A DNA stretch of 42,326 nucleotides. Source: a virus. The position numbers were made by a program, and so were the translations under genes. The notes beneath the pieces were generated by a model, which saw only the letters and a list, made by a program, of their open reading frames with translations, searched no databases and was not told where the DNA came from. Location: the IMG/VR virus record IMGVR_UViG_3300042992_002630, positions 1 through 42,326 of that record, one strand, 5' to 3'. Below, one piece after another: positions 14,603-32,856 of the stretch (position 1 is the stretch's first letter; every line of letters begins with the position of its first letter).

Positions 14603-15175
14603 ATGCCAAATACAGCACAGGTACTCCAATTCATAGGAAGAAGAAACGGTTCTGTTAGAGTGCGGGAATTGCAGATATTTCCTTTTCCTTTAATTCAAAG
14701 TTTGGAGCGCTCCAAACTTATCAAAATACTGAAAGAGGGCGGAGAATGGAGAATACAATCTGTATCGGCATTTGAAAAAAAAGAGGAAATAAATTCAATA
14801 ATACCCCGACAAGAGAAAGTCGTTGAAAAACTGCCAAAACCAATAAAAGGGGAGAAGAGAAAAACAGCTAAAGCAAGAATATCTCCTACTAAAATCGAAG
14901 AAAAAAAGCCGAAAGTAGACATAAAAGCACAGGTGTACTCTTTTATTCTAGCATCTGAACATCCGCTATTTTCCAAAGATATTTTGGCATCTAAAATATG
15001 TGCCAAGGTCACACTTCACAAGTACCTAAATCTTCTTATGGAAGAAGGGTCTGTAATAGCAGACGATAAACAGAAGGATAGACTTTATATTGATAAAGAC
15101 AGAGCGCATCTACTCATTGAGTACGGCTTCTTAAAGAATCCAAGAAAATTATTGCACGTCCTTGGGGGTGTGTGA
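14603..15175 (+). CDS. Two-winged-helix hypothetical protein
   Basis: 190 residues: a small N-terminal winged-helix-like domain (VLQFIGRRNGSVRVRELQIF), a basic linker (70-115) and a second winged-helix-like domain (SEHPLFSKDILASKICAKVT). The ribosome binding region has a duplicated GAGGAAGATTAC. The stop codon overlaps the next start (TGATG). Probably DNA-binding in the replication module. Confidence 0.55.
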   Translation: MPNTAQVLQFIGRRNGSVRVRELQIFPFPLIQSLERSKLIKILKEGGEWRIQSVSAFEKKEEINSIIPRQEKVVEKLPKPIKGEKRKTAKARISPTKIEEKKPKVDIKAQVYSFILASEHPLFSKDILASKICAKVTLHKYLNLLMEEGSVIADDKQKDRLYIDKDRAHLLIEYGFLKNPRKLLHVLGGV

Positions 15176-15453
15176 TGGGGGAAACAATCAGAGTTGAACA
15201 CTCCAAAGATTACACCATTATCTCAAATCTAGCCATTAGAGATGTTCGCTTGAGTCTTAGAGCAAGAGGTTTGCATCACCTACTTTTGAGCTATCCAAAC
15301 GGCTGGAAAATAAATATCGACCATCTAACCGGTGAGTCGAAAATAGAGGGTAAAGATGCGATCGCCAAGTCGCCTAATTTTTTTATCTCAATTAATCGAA
15401 ATTTCAATAACATTATGGATTTTGTGATAAGAGGTGCAAGATGGGTGTTTTAA
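15175..15453 (+). CDS. Truncated replication-protein N-terminal winged helix
   Basis: 93 residues. YTIISNLAIRDVRLSLRARG followed by LHHLLLSYPNGWKINIDHLT is the hallmark N-terminal HTH of phage and plasmid replication proteins (normally followed by GRDAIxxALxELExxGY). Here homology breaks off after EGKDAI and the protein ends in an unrelated tail, so it is probably a 3'-truncated copy. Start at ATG 15175, overlapping the previous stop; a GTG at 15172 is an alternative. Confidence 0.65.
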   Translation: MGETIRVEHSKDYTIISNLAIRDVRLSLRARGLHHLLLSYPNGWKINIDHLTGESKIEGKDAIAKSPNFFISINRNFNNIMDFVIRGARWVF

Positions 15454-16046
15454 AAGTTATCCAAAGCACAAAAGTGGTGTGCATTAACAGCAAGGTTTTT
15501 GAGTTAAATATCACACCAAATGCGTTCAGGCTTTATTGTCAGGTGTTATATGAAGCAGAAAAGCGTCAGGAAGATGAGGTCTATGAGATTGATTTTTTAG
15601 GCTGTGGGATAGACGATGATGGCGTAAAAATAGCGTATCAGGAATTATTCAATCTAGGACTTCTTGAATGTCTTGAGGGTATTGTCACGGTTGTTGATTT
15701 GTCGCCAACAAAACTAGATTCTCCTTTTGTAGTTCAAAAAAAAGTAGAACCTCCACAAGAAGAATTTGTTTATGTAATTCACGCCGTGGATTTGAATCTT
15801 TACAAGATAGGATGCACTAACAATGTAGCCAGAAGATACAAGGAGCTTAGACATCAGCAAATACCGTCAGATCTAGGATTAGTTGCAAGCTACAAAATAG
15901 AAAATGCGGCAAAAGTTGAAAATTATTTACATAATTTCTTTGCAGAAAAAGAAGCTCACAGTGAATGGTTTCGACTAAATCGTAATGATTTATCCCTTAT
16001 TGATTCAAAACTGAAATCAATGGGGGGCATCCGTGAACCAAATTAA
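15441..16046 (+). CDS. wHTH + T5orf172 (GIY-YIG-type) domain protein
   Basis: 201 residues, preceded by AGAGGTGCAAG. The N-terminal half (NITPNAFRLYCQVLYEAEKR) is winged-helix-like, similar to the next protein. The C-terminal half has VYVIHAVDLNLYKIGCTNNV, then RRYKELR, VENYLHNFFAEKE and SEWFRL, the pattern of T5orf172/Mug113 domains of the GIY-YIG superfamily, common in phage Bro/Ant proteins. Nuclease activity cannot be judged. Overlaps the initiator gene by 14 bases. Confidence 0.7.
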   Translation: MGVLKVIQSTKVVCINSKVFELNITPNAFRLYCQVLYEAEKRQEDEVYEIDFLGCGIDDDGVKIAYQELFNLGLLECLEGIVTVVDLSPTKLDSPFVVQKKVEPPQEEFVYVIHAVDLNLYKIGCTNNVARRYKELRHQQIPSDLGLVASYKIENAAKVENYLHNFFAEKEAHSEWFRLNRNDLSLIDSKLKSMGGIREPN

Positions 16047-17118
16047 GGATCGCAGAGACTTTGCAATTGTCGTTCCCTCATATCTTGATGATTACGGATT
16101 AAGCCCTTACGAGTACAGGCTTTACTCTCACATAGTCAGACGCGCCGGGAAAAACGGGTGTTTTGAATCTATTGGGAATATTGCCAAACATTGCTTGATG
16201 AACGAAAAGACGGTCAGGCAGTCACTAAAGGTTTTACTGGGCGCGGGGATGATTGCAGTAGTTGAATCTAAAAAAGGTAAATCGGTAGTTTATGAAGTAA
16301 CCCCGCATGAGGACTGGGTGACACCAGAAGAATTGCCAAACATACGGAATAAGCGCACCCCTACCAAATCAGGTACTACTACCCCTACCAAATCAGGTAC
16401 TACTACCCCTACCAAATCAGGTACTACTACCCCTGCCAAATCAGGTACTACTACCCCTACCAAATCAGGTACTACACCCCTACCAAATTTGGCAGACGAA
16501 GTATTTCCCTCTAAGGAAATCCCTTTCAAGGAAATCCCATTAAGTGAGAGAGAAGAACCCCCTACCCCCGAAGTTGAGGTTTTAACTCCAAAACCAATAA
16601 ACCCAGAAATCCAAGGAAGTGCCTTAGACCAAATCGGTTTCCCTGACCAATCAAAACCAGAATCTTTGCAACAAACCGAAAATCTTCCGTTAGGACAAAA
16701 TTCCCCCGCGCCGCTTGCAAAAGCTGAAACAACAGCAGATAGAGTTAGACGCACTTGGCAAGAAACCGGAATGTTGCCCAGTATCCCGATGGAATTAGAG
16801 GCATGGGTACAAATAGACCTTGGGAGTGAGATCGTGGCTTCCTACCGCAAATCTGGCAGGGTTATGACGATAAAGCAAGGGGATATCCAACCCACTTTTG
16901 CTTCTTACGTGGCCAGCCAGTGGAAAGGGAAGGACATTGACTATGGCTACAGCTACATCAGAAGCCTAGAAAAAGACCCGACTAAGTGGGAGACGTTGGC
17001 TGCCTTGGTAATCAAATGGCAAGCGTCTAAGTCAACCAATAATCACAACCTCAACATTACCCAAGAGGTTGAAAGAGCATCAAAACCAGTAGTTGATTTT
17101 GAAGGAATAAGACTATGA
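16033..17118 (+). CDS. Phage replication initiator / replisome organiser
   Basis: 361 residues, GTG start. Residues 20-95 form a winged helix (LSPYEYRLYSHIVRRAGKNG, then SIGNIAKHCLMNEKTVRQSL), as in DnaD-N/replisome-organiser proteins. Residues 109-150 are repeats of PTKSGTT encoded by 24-bp tandem repeats. A proline-rich linker precedes a C-terminal helical domain (240-335, TWQETGMLPSIPMELEAWVQ). Similar domain order and in-gene repeats occur in lambda O and in replisome organisers of Gram-positive phages, where the repeats are the origin. A helicase-loader-like gene follows (ATGA overlap), completing an initiator-loader pair. Confidence 0.75.
   Translation: MNQIKDRRDFAIVVPSYLDDYGLSPYEYRLYSHIVRRAGKNGCFESIGNIAKHCLMNEKTVRQSLKVLLGAGMIAVVESKKGKSVVYEVTPHEDWVTPEELPNIRNKRTPTKSGTTTPTKSGTTTPTKSGTTTPAKSGTTTPTKSGTTPLPNLADEVFPSKEIPFKEIPLSEREEPPTPEVEVLTPKPINPEIQGSALDQIGFPDQSKPESLQQTENLPLGQNSPAPLAKAETTADRVRRTWQETGMLPSIPMELEAWVQIDLGSEIVASYRKSGRVMTIKQGDIQPTFASYVASQWKGKDIDYGYSYIRSLEKDPTKWETLAALVIKWQASKSTNNHNLNITQEVERASKPVVDFEGIRL
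16357..16490. repeat. Iteron-like 24-bp tandem repeats: candidate replication origin
   Basis: Copies at 16357-16380, 16381-16404, 16405-16428, 16429-16452 (one mismatch), 16453-16475 (lacking one base) and a partial copy from 16476. The unit contains CCTACCAAATCAGGTACTAC. The last copy keeps the DNA sequence but is read in a different codon phase after the single-base loss, which argues that the DNA itself, not only the peptide, matters. Position inside an initiator gene parallels lambda ori within gene O. Confidence 0.7.
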
Positions 17119-17678
17119 GCGAACAGAGCGAACAGTACAAGCGAGCGATCGCCGAACTAGAGACTTTCTATGGTGGCAACGTTCTCAATGGGGGAATACT
17201 CGAAGCTACTTGGATGAGTGAAATGCAAAAACTATCCATTCAACAACTTCAAGTAGCGATCGCCCGCTGCTTCAAAAAGCATCCTAGAAAATATAACTAT
17301 TTCCCATCACCAGATGAAATTTTGGAATTGGGTAGAGGTTCGCTACCTGCTGAAAATTCAGAAATCTATGAAGTTCGCTCAATCAATGATCATCTTCAAC
17401 TACCTCCTGAAGATGAACAAGAAGCTTACAAAGATGTGTTGATAGAGCGGCTTTACCTATGTTTAAAACTCAAGAAAAGAGTAGGTAAAACTGAATTAGA
17501 AAAACAGGATTTTTATGAAAAGTTTGAGTCATATTCCATTGAGGAATTATCAAACTTGTTGGAAATTGAGCGTCCATGCAGAAATTCTACACACATAACA
17601 CCTGAACACGCCGCAACTCCAGAAGCACAAGAATACGCCCGTAAACTCCATCAATTGATTACAGGAAAAACTTTATGA
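17115..17678 (+). CDS. Possible helicase-loader-like protein
   Basis: 187 residues. AIAELETFYGGNVLNGGILE then KLSIQQLQVAIARCFKKHPR and FPSPDEIL resembles the N-terminal fold of DnaB-loader proteins of the G39P type (xxLxxxYP...Wxxxlxx.xxxxxxxAvxxxxxxxxxfPxixEI). Start overlaps the initiator's stop (ATGA). The pairing initiator-loader supports the call; sequence similarity alone is weak. Contains two HIP1 sites. A 23-codon frame follows (17675-17746), too short to judge. Confidence 0.5.
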   Translation: MSEQSEQYKRAIAELETFYGGNVLNGGILEATWMSEMQKLSIQQLQVAIARCFKKHPRKYNYFPSPDEILELGRGSLPAENSEIYEVRSINDHLQLPPEDEQEAYKDVLIERLYLCLKLKKRVGKTELEKQDFYEKFESYSIEELSNLLEIERPCRNSTHITPEHAATPEAQEYARKLHQLITGKTL

Positions 17679-24743: not shown

Positions 24744-25423
24744 GCGGCTCTTTGTGATCTTCGTCTATTGGCTATCTGTTTAATAAGTTGACCTCTAGCC
24801 GCCCTTGCTTCGCTAGGTCTAGGACGGACTGCTGGTGTTGGTGCTGTTGCTGATGCAGCCCTCCTAGAACCTCTGTTTTGATGGGGATCACCACTGGTGC
24901 TACCACCACCAGCATTGCCAGTCCTACCGCCACCACCGCCAGCATTAGCAGTAAGCCCACTTCTTCGTGCTTCTCTCATTGTCCTCCTAGAAGTTGGGTC
25001 AAGAAATTCTGCTGTCGAATAACGGTTTAGCCTGTTACGTCTTCTGGCTGGGGTATCATTGTAAGCATCAAAGCCAATCCTCATCCTCCGTGGCGTACCT
25101 TGTCCACCTCCAATACCTCTAGCAACGTTAGCAATGCCGCCTCTAGTGCTACCGCCACCAGCATTGCCAGTGCTACCGCCACCAGCATTGCCAGTCCTAC
25201 CGCCACCAGCATTGCCAGTCCTACCGCCTCTTCGTGCTGTTTCTGCTATTACTTGCGGCCTAGTACGTGGATCAGTAAAATCCCCCCCTCGTTGTGCTGG
25301 TGTCATAAGACGGTTAATCCTGTTGAGAGTTCTAGGCACGCTATAAGGATCAAAGCCAGTCTTTATCCTTCTAGTCCGCCCACCTTGTCCGCCTCTAGTG
25401 CTTCTAGCAACGCCTCTAGCCAT
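24740..25423 (-). CDS. Gly/Arg-rich repetitive protein
   Basis: 227 residues starting MARGVARSTRGG, preceded by AGGA. Very basic. Two diverged copies of a 50-residue unit (TRRIKTGFDPYSVPRTLNRI and PRRMRIGFDAYNDTPARRRN) are separated by GNAGGGST repeats. Likely nucleic-acid binding or a phage structural/packaged protein; no family recognised. The repeats come from 24-bp tandem DNA units. Confidence 0.6.
   Translation of the reverse strand: MARGVARSTRGGQGGRTRRIKTGFDPYSVPRTLNRINRLMTPAQRGGDFTDPRTRPQVIAETARRGGRTGNAGGGRTGNAGGGSTGNAGGGSTRGGIANVARGIGGGQGTPRRMRIGFDAYNDTPARRRNRLNRYSTAEFLDPTSRRTMREARRSGLTANAGGGGGRTGNAGGGSTSGDPHQNRGSRRAASATAPTPAVRPRPSEARAARGQLIKQIANRRRSQRAA
25149..25220. repeat. Three 24-bp tandem repeats in the Gly-rich gene
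   Basis: Units at 25149-25172, 25173-25196 and 25197-25220 (core CCGCCACCAGCATTGCCAGT), with diverged copies near 24896-24946. They encode AGGGSTGN or AGGGRTGN on the minus strand. Confidence 0.85.
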
Positions 25424-27310: not shown

Positions 27311-27599
27311 TACGAACCAACCGGACTACTTGGGTAATTATCTTGTTGACTTCCTGCATCGCTTTTGAACGGCGACCATGCCTGATGTTGTTCTTTCCAC
27401 ATTTGGATTTATCGCGTGGTCCGGTTGACTTCTCCCAAGGCCTATGTACTAAACATCGTTGACGTGCGGCTTCTATAAACTCAGGTGATAGGTTTTTCCG
27501 CTTGTACCTTTTAGGCGGATATTTTTTAGCCCTGAATGACTCCAAAAACTTGTCAGAATCCAACGTTTTCGGCTGTGATTGCTCCGTCTGTACTGTCAT
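27294..27599 (-). CDS. Small basic protein with WEKSTGPR motif
   Basis: 101 residues. CLVHRPWEKSTGPRDKSKCG followed by KNNIRHGRRSKA is a short motif seen repeatedly in cyanobacterial and phage proteins (HRPWEKSTGPRTxxGK...NxxxHG). Basic throughout, so probably DNA-binding. Overlaps the ParB-like gene by 47 bases. Function unknown. Confidence 0.6.
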   Translation of the reverse strand: MTVQTEQSQPKTLDSDKFLESFRAKKYPPKRYKRKNLSPEFIEAARQRCLVHRPWEKSTGPRDKSKCGKNNIRHGRRSKAMQEVNKIITQVVRLVRNAKEE

Positions 27600-28524
27600 T
27601 TATTGCCACTCCTAACTCGGTGCTCATCATGTCTACTATCTTTAGAATTACCTGACTCCGATATTGCTGAACCATGCCCTCAGTTGAGATGCCAATTTTG
27701 GGTGCAAGTTGGTCAAGTTTAGAGCGAAAATTAGCTAAATCACCCTTATCTAAAAAGATAAAAAACTGTGTTTGCTCACCCTTCCCGGTGTAGTTAATTG
27801 ACTGAACTGCACCAACATCTGTCACATTTTCAGTTTCAACAATGACCTTTTCCGCAGGTGGTGGAGGTGTGTAATCGCTTCTACTGGGTGTTACGTCAAT
27901 GGTAGTGCCATCTTCACTCATTTGAGGATTTGGGTATTTCTCGTCATCAAAATCGTAACCCGTTTCTTCCTGTTCCTCTTCCGGTTCTTCTTTGCGAACT
28001 AGAAAGGCTCGCATAAAACTGTTAGCAGTTGAAGTATCCCAACCCGCTGTTTTAATCTGTCTTTTGGGCATTTGTGCCAAAATTGCGGCAATTTTACCGG
28101 GGTCATCACGTCCATCATGGCTAGTATTGTTAAGTCGAAGCAGCGCCGACTTTTGGGATAGTTCATCGAGCGTGACGGGAACGACGGGGATAGCAGTCCA
28201 ATAATTAGCACAAAACCGCTCTCGATGTTTTTCGGCTACTTTATCTCTCCCCGTCCCTTTGATCCACCGATCCCACTCTTTCAGGAAAAAATCTTCATCC
28301 TGTTGGCTTAACCAATCCGCACCCTGAACCCTGCCATGTCCTGAGATGAGGTAGCCGAAACTACCGTCTAGGTTTCGCTGAATTGTGGGGTAAATCAACC
28401 ATCCAAAATCTAGCAAGCTGTCACGAATCCAAGGCAAATCATTCTCTTCTGAATGTTCGCGGGGATTTTCAGGGTGGAATTTTGCCAATACGCTGGAGAT
28501 TGGTAATCGTAAAACTTCACTCAT
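27553..28524 (-). CDS. ParB/Srx-like domain protein
   Basis: 323 residues. The N-terminal ParB-fold has ENPREHSEENDLPWIRDSL and GYLISGHGRVQGADWLSQQD (GHGR motif). The middle is acidic and low in complexity (EEPEEEQEETGYDFDD), and the C-terminal domain (240-310) is unassigned. Starts with a four-base overlap after the sigma-like gene. Together with the PAPS-reductase-like gene downstream it recalls IbrB/IbrA pairs. Confidence 0.8.
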   Translation of the reverse strand: MSEVLRLPISSVLAKFHPENPREHSEENDLPWIRDSLLDFGWLIYPTIQRNLDGSFGYLISGHGRVQGADWLSQQDEDFFLKEWDRWIKGTGRDKVAEKHRERFCANYWTAIPVVPVTLDELSQKSALLRLNNTSHDGRDDPGKIAAILAQMPKRQIKTAGWDTSTANSFMRAFLVRKEEPEEEQEETGYDFDDEKYPNPQMSEDGTTIDVTPSRSDYTPPPPAEKVIVETENVTDVGAVQSINYTGKGEQTQFFIFLDKGDLANFRSKLDQLAPKIGISTEGMVQQYRSQVILKIVDMMSTELGVAINDSTDGAITAENVGF

Positions 28525-29639
28525 TTTTTAGCAACCTCGACGGCTTCCTGAGATTTTTGCATAGCGCTGTTTAGCAGTTTTAACGCCTCGTCTAACTCTG
28601 GTGATTCACCACAGTTCTTGATTAGGTAATCAGCGAGTGACGTAAATTTTGATGTAATCTGCCATTGTGATTGACTGGTACTCATTCGTTTTTTCGATAG
28701 ATTTATTGAATTATTGATAACATAATTTTTACTCCATAGGTAAGCGGTGCTGTGGTCAACTCCCAAATAAGTTTCACACCAATAACTAGATTTACCGTTA
28801 GCGATCGCCTCCAAAACTTTCAGCTTCACATTATTAGAATAGCCACGTCTCCCATTTGGCAATGGGTTCTCCCTGAATTGAGTCTGACAGGACTTGCACA
28901 AATAGCTTTGTTTCCCGTCACGTTTACCATTTTTAATAGTTTGATAGGATTTGCAGTTTGGACATTGAACACGCCCCGCAATAATTAACTTTAACTTTTG
29001 TAAAGACTCAGATTTAATGCGGTGTAATTCCTTCAATTTAATATTATGGATTTGGCACAACATTTTGGCGGGGATATGGGTAATATATAAATCTTTGATG
29101 ATTGTGGCGTGAAGTTCTGGCAACTTATCAAGCAGCGGGAGAATTGACTCTGATTCCTCTGCTTGCTCCGTTGTCAACTGTTCGGGTAGTTCAGGATTAT
29201 TTTGATTGCAAGCTATCGCCGCCTCTTTGGCAACTTGTAAAGAGATATTTAGTTCAATGGCCGCTTGTTCATAAGTTACGCCATGTTTTTGCGCGTGTCG
29301 CTTCAATTTTTGGTGGGTTTCTTGGAGGGGACGCGGAACTTTTACCATCCGCGCTTTATCCCTGACAAATTGCGCCATTGCACCATAAATAAACGGCACG
29401 GCGTAACTGGAAAGTTTAATTTTCTTAGTAGGGTCAAACCTCTCCACCGCTTTGATTAATCCCTCCGCCCCAATTTGTATCAGGTCTTCTCTTGGGACTG
29501 TGCAGCAAGCGGTCATTTTACCTGCTATATGACCGACTAGCCCCATGTTAGTCTCAACTATTTTGTTTCTCAGTCGGATGTCCCTGGTTTGGTGAAAATT
29601 AATTAAAAGTTGCTGATTGTCTAAGTATGCCGCGTCCAT
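28521..29639 (-). CDS. Sigma-70-type factor fused to IS1 InsA-like zinc ribbon and HTH
   Basis: 372 residues. Residues 8-100 are sigma region 2 (EDLIQIGAEGLIKAVERFDP, then SSYAVPFIYGAMAQFVRD); about 100-135 region 3 (VKVPRPLQETHQKLKRHAQK); about 168-222 a region 4-like HTH. Then a zinc ribbon with Cys226, Cys229, Cys248 and Cys251 (CPNCKSYQTIKNGKRDGKQS) and a helix-turn-helix (270-305, VKLKVLEAIANGKSSYWCET) as in IS1-family InsA proteins. No transposase DDE domain. Predicted to redirect host RNA polymerase to phage promoters, with added DNA-binding specificity from the transposon-type module. First gene of the ParB/PAPS operon. Confidence 0.8.
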   Translation of the reverse strand: MDAAYLDNQQLLINFHQTRDIRLRNKIVETNMGLVGHIAGKMTACCTVPREDLIQIGAEGLIKAVERFDPTKKIKLSSYAVPFIYGAMAQFVRDKARMVKVPRPLQETHQKLKRHAQKHGVTYEQAAIELNISLQVAKEAAIACNQNNPELPEQLTTEQAEESESILPLLDKLPELHATIIKDLYITHIPAKMLCQIHNIKLKELHRIKSESLQKLKLIIAGRVQCPNCKSYQTIKNGKRDGKQSYLCKSCQTQFRENPLPNGRRGYSNNVKLKVLEAIANGKSSYWCETYLGVDHSTAYLWSKNYVINNSINLSKKRMSTSQSQWQITSKFTSLADYLIKNCGESPELDEALKLLNSAMQKSQEAVEVAKK

Positions 29640-31449: not shown

Positions 31450-31475
31450 ATAGCACCCCTCATGAGGGGTGCTAT
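31450..31475. terminator. Leader hairpin (attenuator candidate)
   Basis: ATAGCACCCCTC-AT-GAGGGGTGCTAT, 12-bp arms, between promoter copy F and the 31395 start. No T-tract in the leftward direction. A weaker version is at 33326-33350. Confidence 0.55.
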
Positions 31476-31605: not shown

Positions 31606-32856
31606 ATGGGCAAAGCGTTAGAGGTTTTTGAAAAAACCTGTAAAAAAGGTAAAGCTTGCGGAAATGCTTGTATTTCCGCGCTTAAAAATTGTGCATCAAA
31701 GAAAACTGGGGAATCCACCAAGGAAACCGGAAAATCTACTAAGGAAACCGGAAAATCTACTAAGGAAACCGGAAAATCTACTAAGGAAACCGGAAAATCT
31801 ACTAAGGAAACCGGAAAATCTACCAAGGAAACCGGAAAATCTACTAAGGAAACCGGAGAATCTACTAAAAAGACCAGGGGTTCTACTAAGGAAACCGGGG
31901 AATCCACCAAAAAAACTGGAGAATCCACTCAACCCACTAAAACCACACCTATATCATACAAAGTCGATTCTTCGGATCATAAGGCTTTGATGAACATAGG
32001 CAAGGATTTTTCTGATCAAACTATGGGGAAAGCACTAAAAGCATTACAAGATGCTCAAGCTGAGAAAAAGAATTTCTTTATGGACATAGAGAGGAATAAC
32101 AAGAAAACCAAACAAGGAAAATGGTTCAAAAAAGATGAAAAACACGCAGCAAAATTGGATGAGAAAATGTTACTTGCCCAGAAAGAGCTTGAAGCGGCCG
32201 CAGAGGGAACGTTACAGAAATTAAAAGCCCATCATAAAATTGATAGAGAAGATGCAGAAAAATGGGCTAATTCACTTGTTTCTGACAAATTCACGCTCAC
32301 AGGTAAAGACAGGGAAACAACTTTGACTGCTTTAGCGGATGTTTATATGATAACAGGCGGCATGGGTGCGACAGAACTAAAAAAAGTAGTAAGTACCGAT
32401 ACAAATAGAGCCTTTGCAGATCCATACACTGGAGAACTAACTTTAGAAAGTAAGGGTCTAAAGATTCTTGGCAAAGAATTATCTCCAGAGGCTGAAAGTA
32501 GCCTTACTTCTCGTCGTGAGACAGTGTTCCACGAATACGCGCATTTTTCGGAATTTGAGAATAAGCAATTGGCTGTCGCGTCAAGAAAATTCATTGAAGA
32601 TCGGGCTACGTCGTCTGAGCTTATGAAAATAAATGATATAACTGGATTCAGCGGATACAGAGATAATGAGATGGCATTCCCAGGCAACTTTATACACCCC
32701 TATGTAGGGAAGATATATGGTCCTTCGGGTACTTGGACTGAGGTTGTTTCGATGGGAGTTGAAAGCTTTAAAACTCCCTTTCAGATGGCTTCCTTTTACA
32801 GGCGAGATCCAGAGCATTTTAATTTTATCTTAGGAGCGATTTTACATGAAAATTAA
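31606..32856 (+). CDS. Putative zinc metalloprotease with Cys-rich N-terminus and heptad repeats
   Basis: 416 residues. N-terminal CKKGKACGNACISALKNC (a short Cys motif seen in other phage and cyanobacterial head/toxin proteins); residues 32-108 hold 11 tandem heptads K(E/K)TGKST; a helical middle region follows. A C-terminal zincin site HEYAH (309-313) sits in RRETVFHEYAHFSEFENKQL with candidate third ligand Glu379 (TWTEVVSMGVE). Could be a prohead protease, a packaged effector or a secreted toxin; the small overlapping gene after it may be a partner. Confidence 0.65.
   Translation: MGKALEVFEKTCKKGKACGNACISALKNCASKKTGESTKETGKSTKETGKSTKETGKSTKETGKSTKETGKSTKETGKSTKETGESTKKTRGSTKETGESTKKTGESTQPTKTTPISYKVDSSDHKALMNIGKDFSDQTMGKALKALQDAQAEKKNFFMDIERNNKKTKQGKWFKKDEKHAAKLDEKMLLAQKELEAAAEGTLQKLKAHHKIDREDAEKWANSLVSDKFTLTGKDRETTLTALADVYMITGGMGATELKKVVSTDTNRAFADPYTGELTLESKGLKILGKELSPEAESSLTSRRETVFHEYAHFSEFENKQLAVASRKFIEDRATSSELMKINDITGFSGYRDNEMAFPGNFIHPYVGKIYGPSGTWTEVVSMGVESFKTPFQMASFYRRDPEHFNFILGAILHEN
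31699..31929. repeat. Eleven 21-bp tandem repeats
   Basis: Units such as AAGGAAACCGGAAAATCTAC repeated in frame, encoding KETGKST heptads; six central copies are nearly identical, the outer ones diverged. Confidence 0.9.

Follow-up and report, generated by a model that had tools for sequence, protein, structure and literature searches.

The tandem repeats inside the replication initiator gene of this phage probably serve as the iterons of a theta-type origin, at which the winged helix of the initiator would bind, the adjacent downstream DNA would open and the C-terminal domain would recruit the helicase. The DNA analysed, hereafter the window, is a 42,326-bp IMG/VR virus record without terminal direct repeats that encodes phage tail, portal, terminase, Erf and ParB-like proteins; a gene on the complementary strand (28521-29639) matches an RNA polymerase sigma factor family (phrog_351, 8e-36). 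As the nearest winged-helix relatives come from Nostoc and other cyanobacteria, the phage host is probably a cyanobacterium.

The initiator gene (16033-17118, + strand; GTG start, 361 aa) encodes an HTH_36 winged helix, then a linker encoded by the repeats and finally a separate C-terminal domain. The HTH_36 match (PF13730, E=5e-7, 29.8 bits) is above the Pfam cutoff of 25, and when the repeats are excluded, the protein finds its best family matches in PHROG replication-initiation families (E=2.5e-9); by these matches, the gene is of initiator type. The winged-helix domain, the proposed iteron reader, spans residues 1-107 (16033-16353, + strand) and was modelled by AlphaFold2 with pLDDT 82.5. 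VIA-align of the model returned the plasmid Rep structures 4pql, 4pt7 and 5kbj level with generic winged helices, the structure search giving no separation of initiator winged helices from others, and hmmscan (HMMER, up to E=0.1) found no PF06970 RepA_N domain in the protein. Taken alone, the likeness of the model to RepA_N folds is generic. The C-terminal domain (16705-17115, + strand) is common to the loci L001, L002, L026 and L028, with 68-78% identity.

The initiator gene is the last of three winged-helix-like genes in a row (15172-15453, 15441-16046 and 16033-17118). The first, a 93-aa ORF on the + strand, shows a match to the beginning of replication-initiation families (phrog_4707, 8e-11) with an L002-type winged helix, and is possibly the remnant of an earlier initiator. 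In the product of the second (+ strand), the N-terminal portion aligns with the profile of the initiator winged helix (hhalign probability 83, pairwise E 9e-6) and the C-terminal portion with a T5orf172/GIY-YIG nuclease domain. Odn, an origin-directed nuclease encoded by phage ICP1, has the same layout (PMC8263062), and by analogy the predicted nuclease may cut a competitor's origin; no relatives of its gene were found in viral contigs.

The array consists of six tandem dyad sites, TACC-N6-GGYA, at steps of 24, 24, 24, 24 and 23 bp, and occupies 16357-16494 (+ strand) as determined by TRF and a core scan. Iterons 1, 2, 3 and 5 (16362-16375, 16386-16399, 16410-16423 and 16458-16471) read TACCAAATCAGGTA and iteron 4 (16434-16447) reads TGCCAAATCAGGTA, all in codon phase 2; iteron 6 (16481-16494) reads TACCAAATTTGGCA in codon phase 1. 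The dyad TACC-N6-GGTA is found at each site, one arm being TGCC in sites 4 and 6. TRF scored the repeats (16357-16488; period 24, 5.5 copies, 97% match) at 250, compared to a top score of 50 in 100 mononucleotide shuffles of the initiator gene, and the shuffled array segment contained on average 0.03 dyad cores, with a maximum of 1, compared to the six real ones. The array is the sole cluster of the 14-bp core in the window, other 3-mismatch matches being scattered. Two more coding tandem arrays are present in other genes, at 31697-31929 and 25145-25228 (21-bp and 24-bp units).

The sequence-only reading had described five 24-bp repeats plus a partial copy at 16357-16490, between the winged-helix and C-terminal domains. 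The six dyads (16362-16494) do map between these domains, and both the array and its start stand, but the supposed partial copy is a complete sixth site, TACC-AAATTT-GGCA, which extends the array to 16494. Likewise, the 1-base phase offset that had been ascribed to a base lost from one copy is real and lies in the last step, of 23 bp; it need not reflect a recent loss, because such a step occurs in nearly all 16 related arrays (replaced in L032 by one of 47 bp), in L022 at an identical place. In our interpretation, the sixth site, with a frame of its own, is probably older, and expansion gave rise to the copies in phase 2.

A profile search of genome contigs with an alignment query gave 30 loci; the same kind of contigs searched with the single initiator protein gave no matches. 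Fifteen relatives belong to the same clade as the window: L005 (a Nostoc plasmid), L029-L041 (thirteen Nostoc-group genome loci) and L022 (a phage contig). Many of them are near-identical, which leaves about seven independent lineages, window included. Their winged helices are 56-73% identical to that of the window, and their arrays contain five to seven cores with the same or a matching 14-bp dyad at 23/24-bp steps, which is the conservation in relatives that the sequence-only reading had proposed to look for. The single 23-bp step shifts the frame in most same-clade arrays, at a position that varies. Cores are read in two frames in nearly all of these arrays and in both orientations in several, and the peptides they encode differ (TKSG, PNLV, PDLV, PEMV, PNQ). 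All seven L022 copies have the dyad TAGC-N6-GCCA, the same position being altered in both half-sites; a dimer reading the dyad would explain this paired change, a peptide does not. In L001 and L028, a 23-bp period causes the core to be read in three frames. Selection at the DNA level, already favored over peptide function in the sequence-only reading, is thus well supported by these comparisons, through the core kept across frames and strands, the differing peptides, the paired half-site change and the joint inheritance of repeats and winged helix; the frame and strand evidence led us to reject selection on the peptide that the array encodes. Arrays can be degenerate or absent, since TRF detected none in L013 and L014 despite their related winged helix. 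In addition, three related winged-helix genes from Calothrix and Nostoc (L055, L056 and L057) end soon after the domain, without an obvious repeat array, and perhaps encode stand-alone DNA-binding proteins.

In the loci compared, the iteron type goes with the winged-helix type. Five phage loci (the window, L001, L002, L026 and L028) combine a common C-terminal domain with four winged-helix types and different repeats: 24 bp in the window, 23 bp (AACGGTCAAAYAACCG) in L001 and L028, 15 bp (AACCGGAAACGGTT) in L002, and a shorter, imperfect set, judged by eye, in L026. The winged helices of L002 and L026 show a distant likeness (28%). The window, L022 and L005 have a common winged helix and iteron and unrelated C-terminal domains. 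A recombination junction is located at 16538-16546, just beyond the array: the DNA homology of the window to L022, on the winged-helix side, ends at 16538, and that to L001 and L026, on the side of the C-terminal domain, begins at 16542 and 16546, respectively. The C-terminal type in turn goes with the next gene, a small gene for the window's type versus DnaB in L022, L005 and other Nostoc plasmids. These sequence comparisons show that the winged-helix part and its DNA site are inherited together, as one swappable cassette.

The next gene in the window (17115-17678, + strand) overlaps the initiator gene by ATGA and has the position of lambda P. Its product is a putative helicase loader, based on this position and on co-occurrence with the C-terminal type. 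It has no family or fold match, no detectable loader homology and no direct profile match to lambda P; an AlphaFold2 fold assignment was dropped, the model being too poor (pLDDT 68.5). In many relatives, the gene that follows the initiator is dnaB, and in two small Nostoc plasmids the winged-helix initiator and dnaB are the only annotated replication genes.

DNA of low duplex stability lies just 3' of the array. The weakest 50 bp after the window array starts at 16499 and falls within the gene's lowest 2%, without being its minimum; its A+T content, 62%, is only moderate. Directly 3' of the array is where the gene's weakest 50 bp is found in 13 of 19 initiator genes, lambda O among them. This weak duplex contains AAGGTAATCC-like 10-mers at 13-15-bp steps. 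In the window, the proposed unwinding element spans 16498-16545 (+ strand), with copies starting at 16498, 16513 and 16528 (15-bp steps) and a summed match of 24 versus a shuffled mean of 16.6. The AAGGTAATCC-like repeats exceed the shuffles in 15 of 17 loci (p up to 0.034) and do not in L040 and L042, the start used for the latter probably having been placed too late. Phases 0, 1 and 2 are all represented among the copies, the phase switching between copies in several genes, and in L024 and L023 this second motif is built from codons uncommon in the rest of the gene. Because the reference word was picked from the same loci, many of the loci are related and the shuffle comparison is lenient, we treat the second repeat as hypothetical. 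Tentatively, and as a possibility rather than a probability, the initiator family may carry a second sequence-specific origin code, in which AAGGTAATCC-like repeats in the unwinding region are conserved in plasmids and phages of cyanobacteria and Deinococcus despite differing iterons and are read by a shared factor; such a reader would be, for example, a replication protein of the host or the initiator acting on single strands. The motif does not work as a general initiator marker, since scans also matched unrelated genes: with exact AAGGNAATCC, three of four distinct sequence contexts are winged-helix initiators and the fourth (three contigs) is an unrelated protein, and looser matching of paired AAGGNAATCC in viral contigs brought in unrelated genes alone.

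In the mechanism that we propose, the N-terminal winged helix, probably dimeric, would bind each TACC-N6-GGTA dyad, and the initiator would coat the six sites, whose spacing is slightly above two helical turns. The wrapped complex would strain the adjacent weak duplex on its downstream side (about 16498-16545) until it opens, and the strands thus separated may be held by the second short repeat. Next, the C-terminal domain would recruit the helicase via the product of the next gene, loader-like here and DnaB itself in relatives. The array DNA would also encode a tolerant linker, so that array length could drift and winged helix, iterons and weak duplex could be exchanged as a unit. DNA-level conservation, dyads, the pairing of winged helix with iteron and of C-terminal domain with next gene, and the position of the weak duplex are seen in the sequences; binding, dimerisation, unwinding and helicase recruitment are what we infer.

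GC skew, which the sequence-only reading had suggested as a check, has its minimum over the 42-kb record at 31461 and does not mark the array; skew is weak evidence in a mosaic temperate phage, and no origin was located with it. The loci whose arrays escaped TRF (L013, L014), the moderate A+T content of the window's weak duplex, which is not the weakest of its gene, and the negative loader searches also weigh against the origin reading. The skew result, together with the control roles that are frequent among iteron arrays, counts for a reading in which the initiator-bound dyads are mainly regulatory (incompatibility, copy control or autorepression) and replication truly starts elsewhere. We consider this unlikely, as the sites are 330-460 bp inside the gene, away from the promoter, and a weak duplex lies next to the sites in unrelated cassettes and moves with them. 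Less likely again would be a centromere-like site that serves partition and is bound by a winged-helix centromere-binding protein: the AspA centromere binder is among the many winged helices matched by the model and the phage has a ParB-like gene (27553-28524), but no ParA-like gene is seen beside the initiator in the window, dnaB comes next in many relatives, and ParA is located elsewhere in two Nostoc plasmids. A low-complexity protein linker grown by replication slippage, without DNA-level role, would fit a period of 24 bp (8 codons) and the two other coding arrays of the window (periods 21 and 24), but is scarcely credible given a core kept across frames and strands with differing peptides, the paired half-site change of L022 and the 23-bp periods of L001 and L028.

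An origin within the gene of its reader, inherited with it as a cassette, is already known for phage lambda and staphylococcal plasmids, and the window adds a well-evidenced example from a probably cyanobacterial phage. Lambda and Stx phages have in-gene inverted-repeat iterons plus an A+T-rich tract (PMC7466680), and their O proteins have N-terminal DNA-binding and C-terminal P-binding parts with a flexible linker in between (PMC6022878). The lambda-O-style anatomy, proposed as probable by the sequence-only reading, is borne out in the architecture: like lambda O/ori-lambda (and Stx-phage O), the window has in-gene dyad iterons at 20-24-bp steps in several frames (steps 20, 24 and 23 and phases 0, 2, 2 and 1 in the lambda reference), weak duplex just 3' of them, N-terminal DNA binding with C-terminal partner binding (proposed for the window), and a P-position gene overlapping by ATGA. 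It differs from lambda in its iteron, in the second repeat, not seen in lambda, and in its probable cyanobacterial host. Comparing the winged helix with lambda O, and the next gene with lambda P, revealed no direct homology; hhalign profile comparison detected none between the window initiator, or its winged helix, and lambda O, both initiators matching the PHROG O-like families 391 and 678.

In pSK41 Rep, boxes central in rep are bound by the winged-helix N-terminal domain, and the linker they encode is dispensable (PMC5703833). The pPR9 Rep, which works as a replicon, carries on a pSK41-type C-terminal domain an HTH_36 domain similar to a phage replication protein, swapped together with the in-gene origin (PMC5703833); the combination of HTH_36 and in-gene origin is therefore already reported. 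Likened by description, the window and pPR9 Rep have in common an HTH_36 (PF13730) N-terminal domain with an in-gene origin, and differ by the Firmicute host and pSK41-type C-terminal domain of pPR9, to which the window's C-terminal domain looks unrelated. RepA_N initiators such as pSK41 Rep resemble the window in their winged-helix N-terminus, mid-gene boxes and fold (4pql, 4pt7, 5kbj), whereas the window has no PF06970 match by HMMER and a different C-terminal domain. In the PLE of Vibrio satellites, the origin is exchanged along with the RepA_N domain and the C-terminal domain is retained (PMC8263062); the same exchange is seen here, with the origin being intergenic in PLE and in-gene in the window.

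A single dataset thus shows origin and reader swapped as one cassette, separately from the part that would recruit the helicase. Should the second repeat be real, it would bear on how unwinding regions are recognized. For a phage and for a group of Nostoc plasmids, of which two small ones have no other annotated initiator, the array offers a compact proposed origin that is open to testing, and such origins could become vectors.
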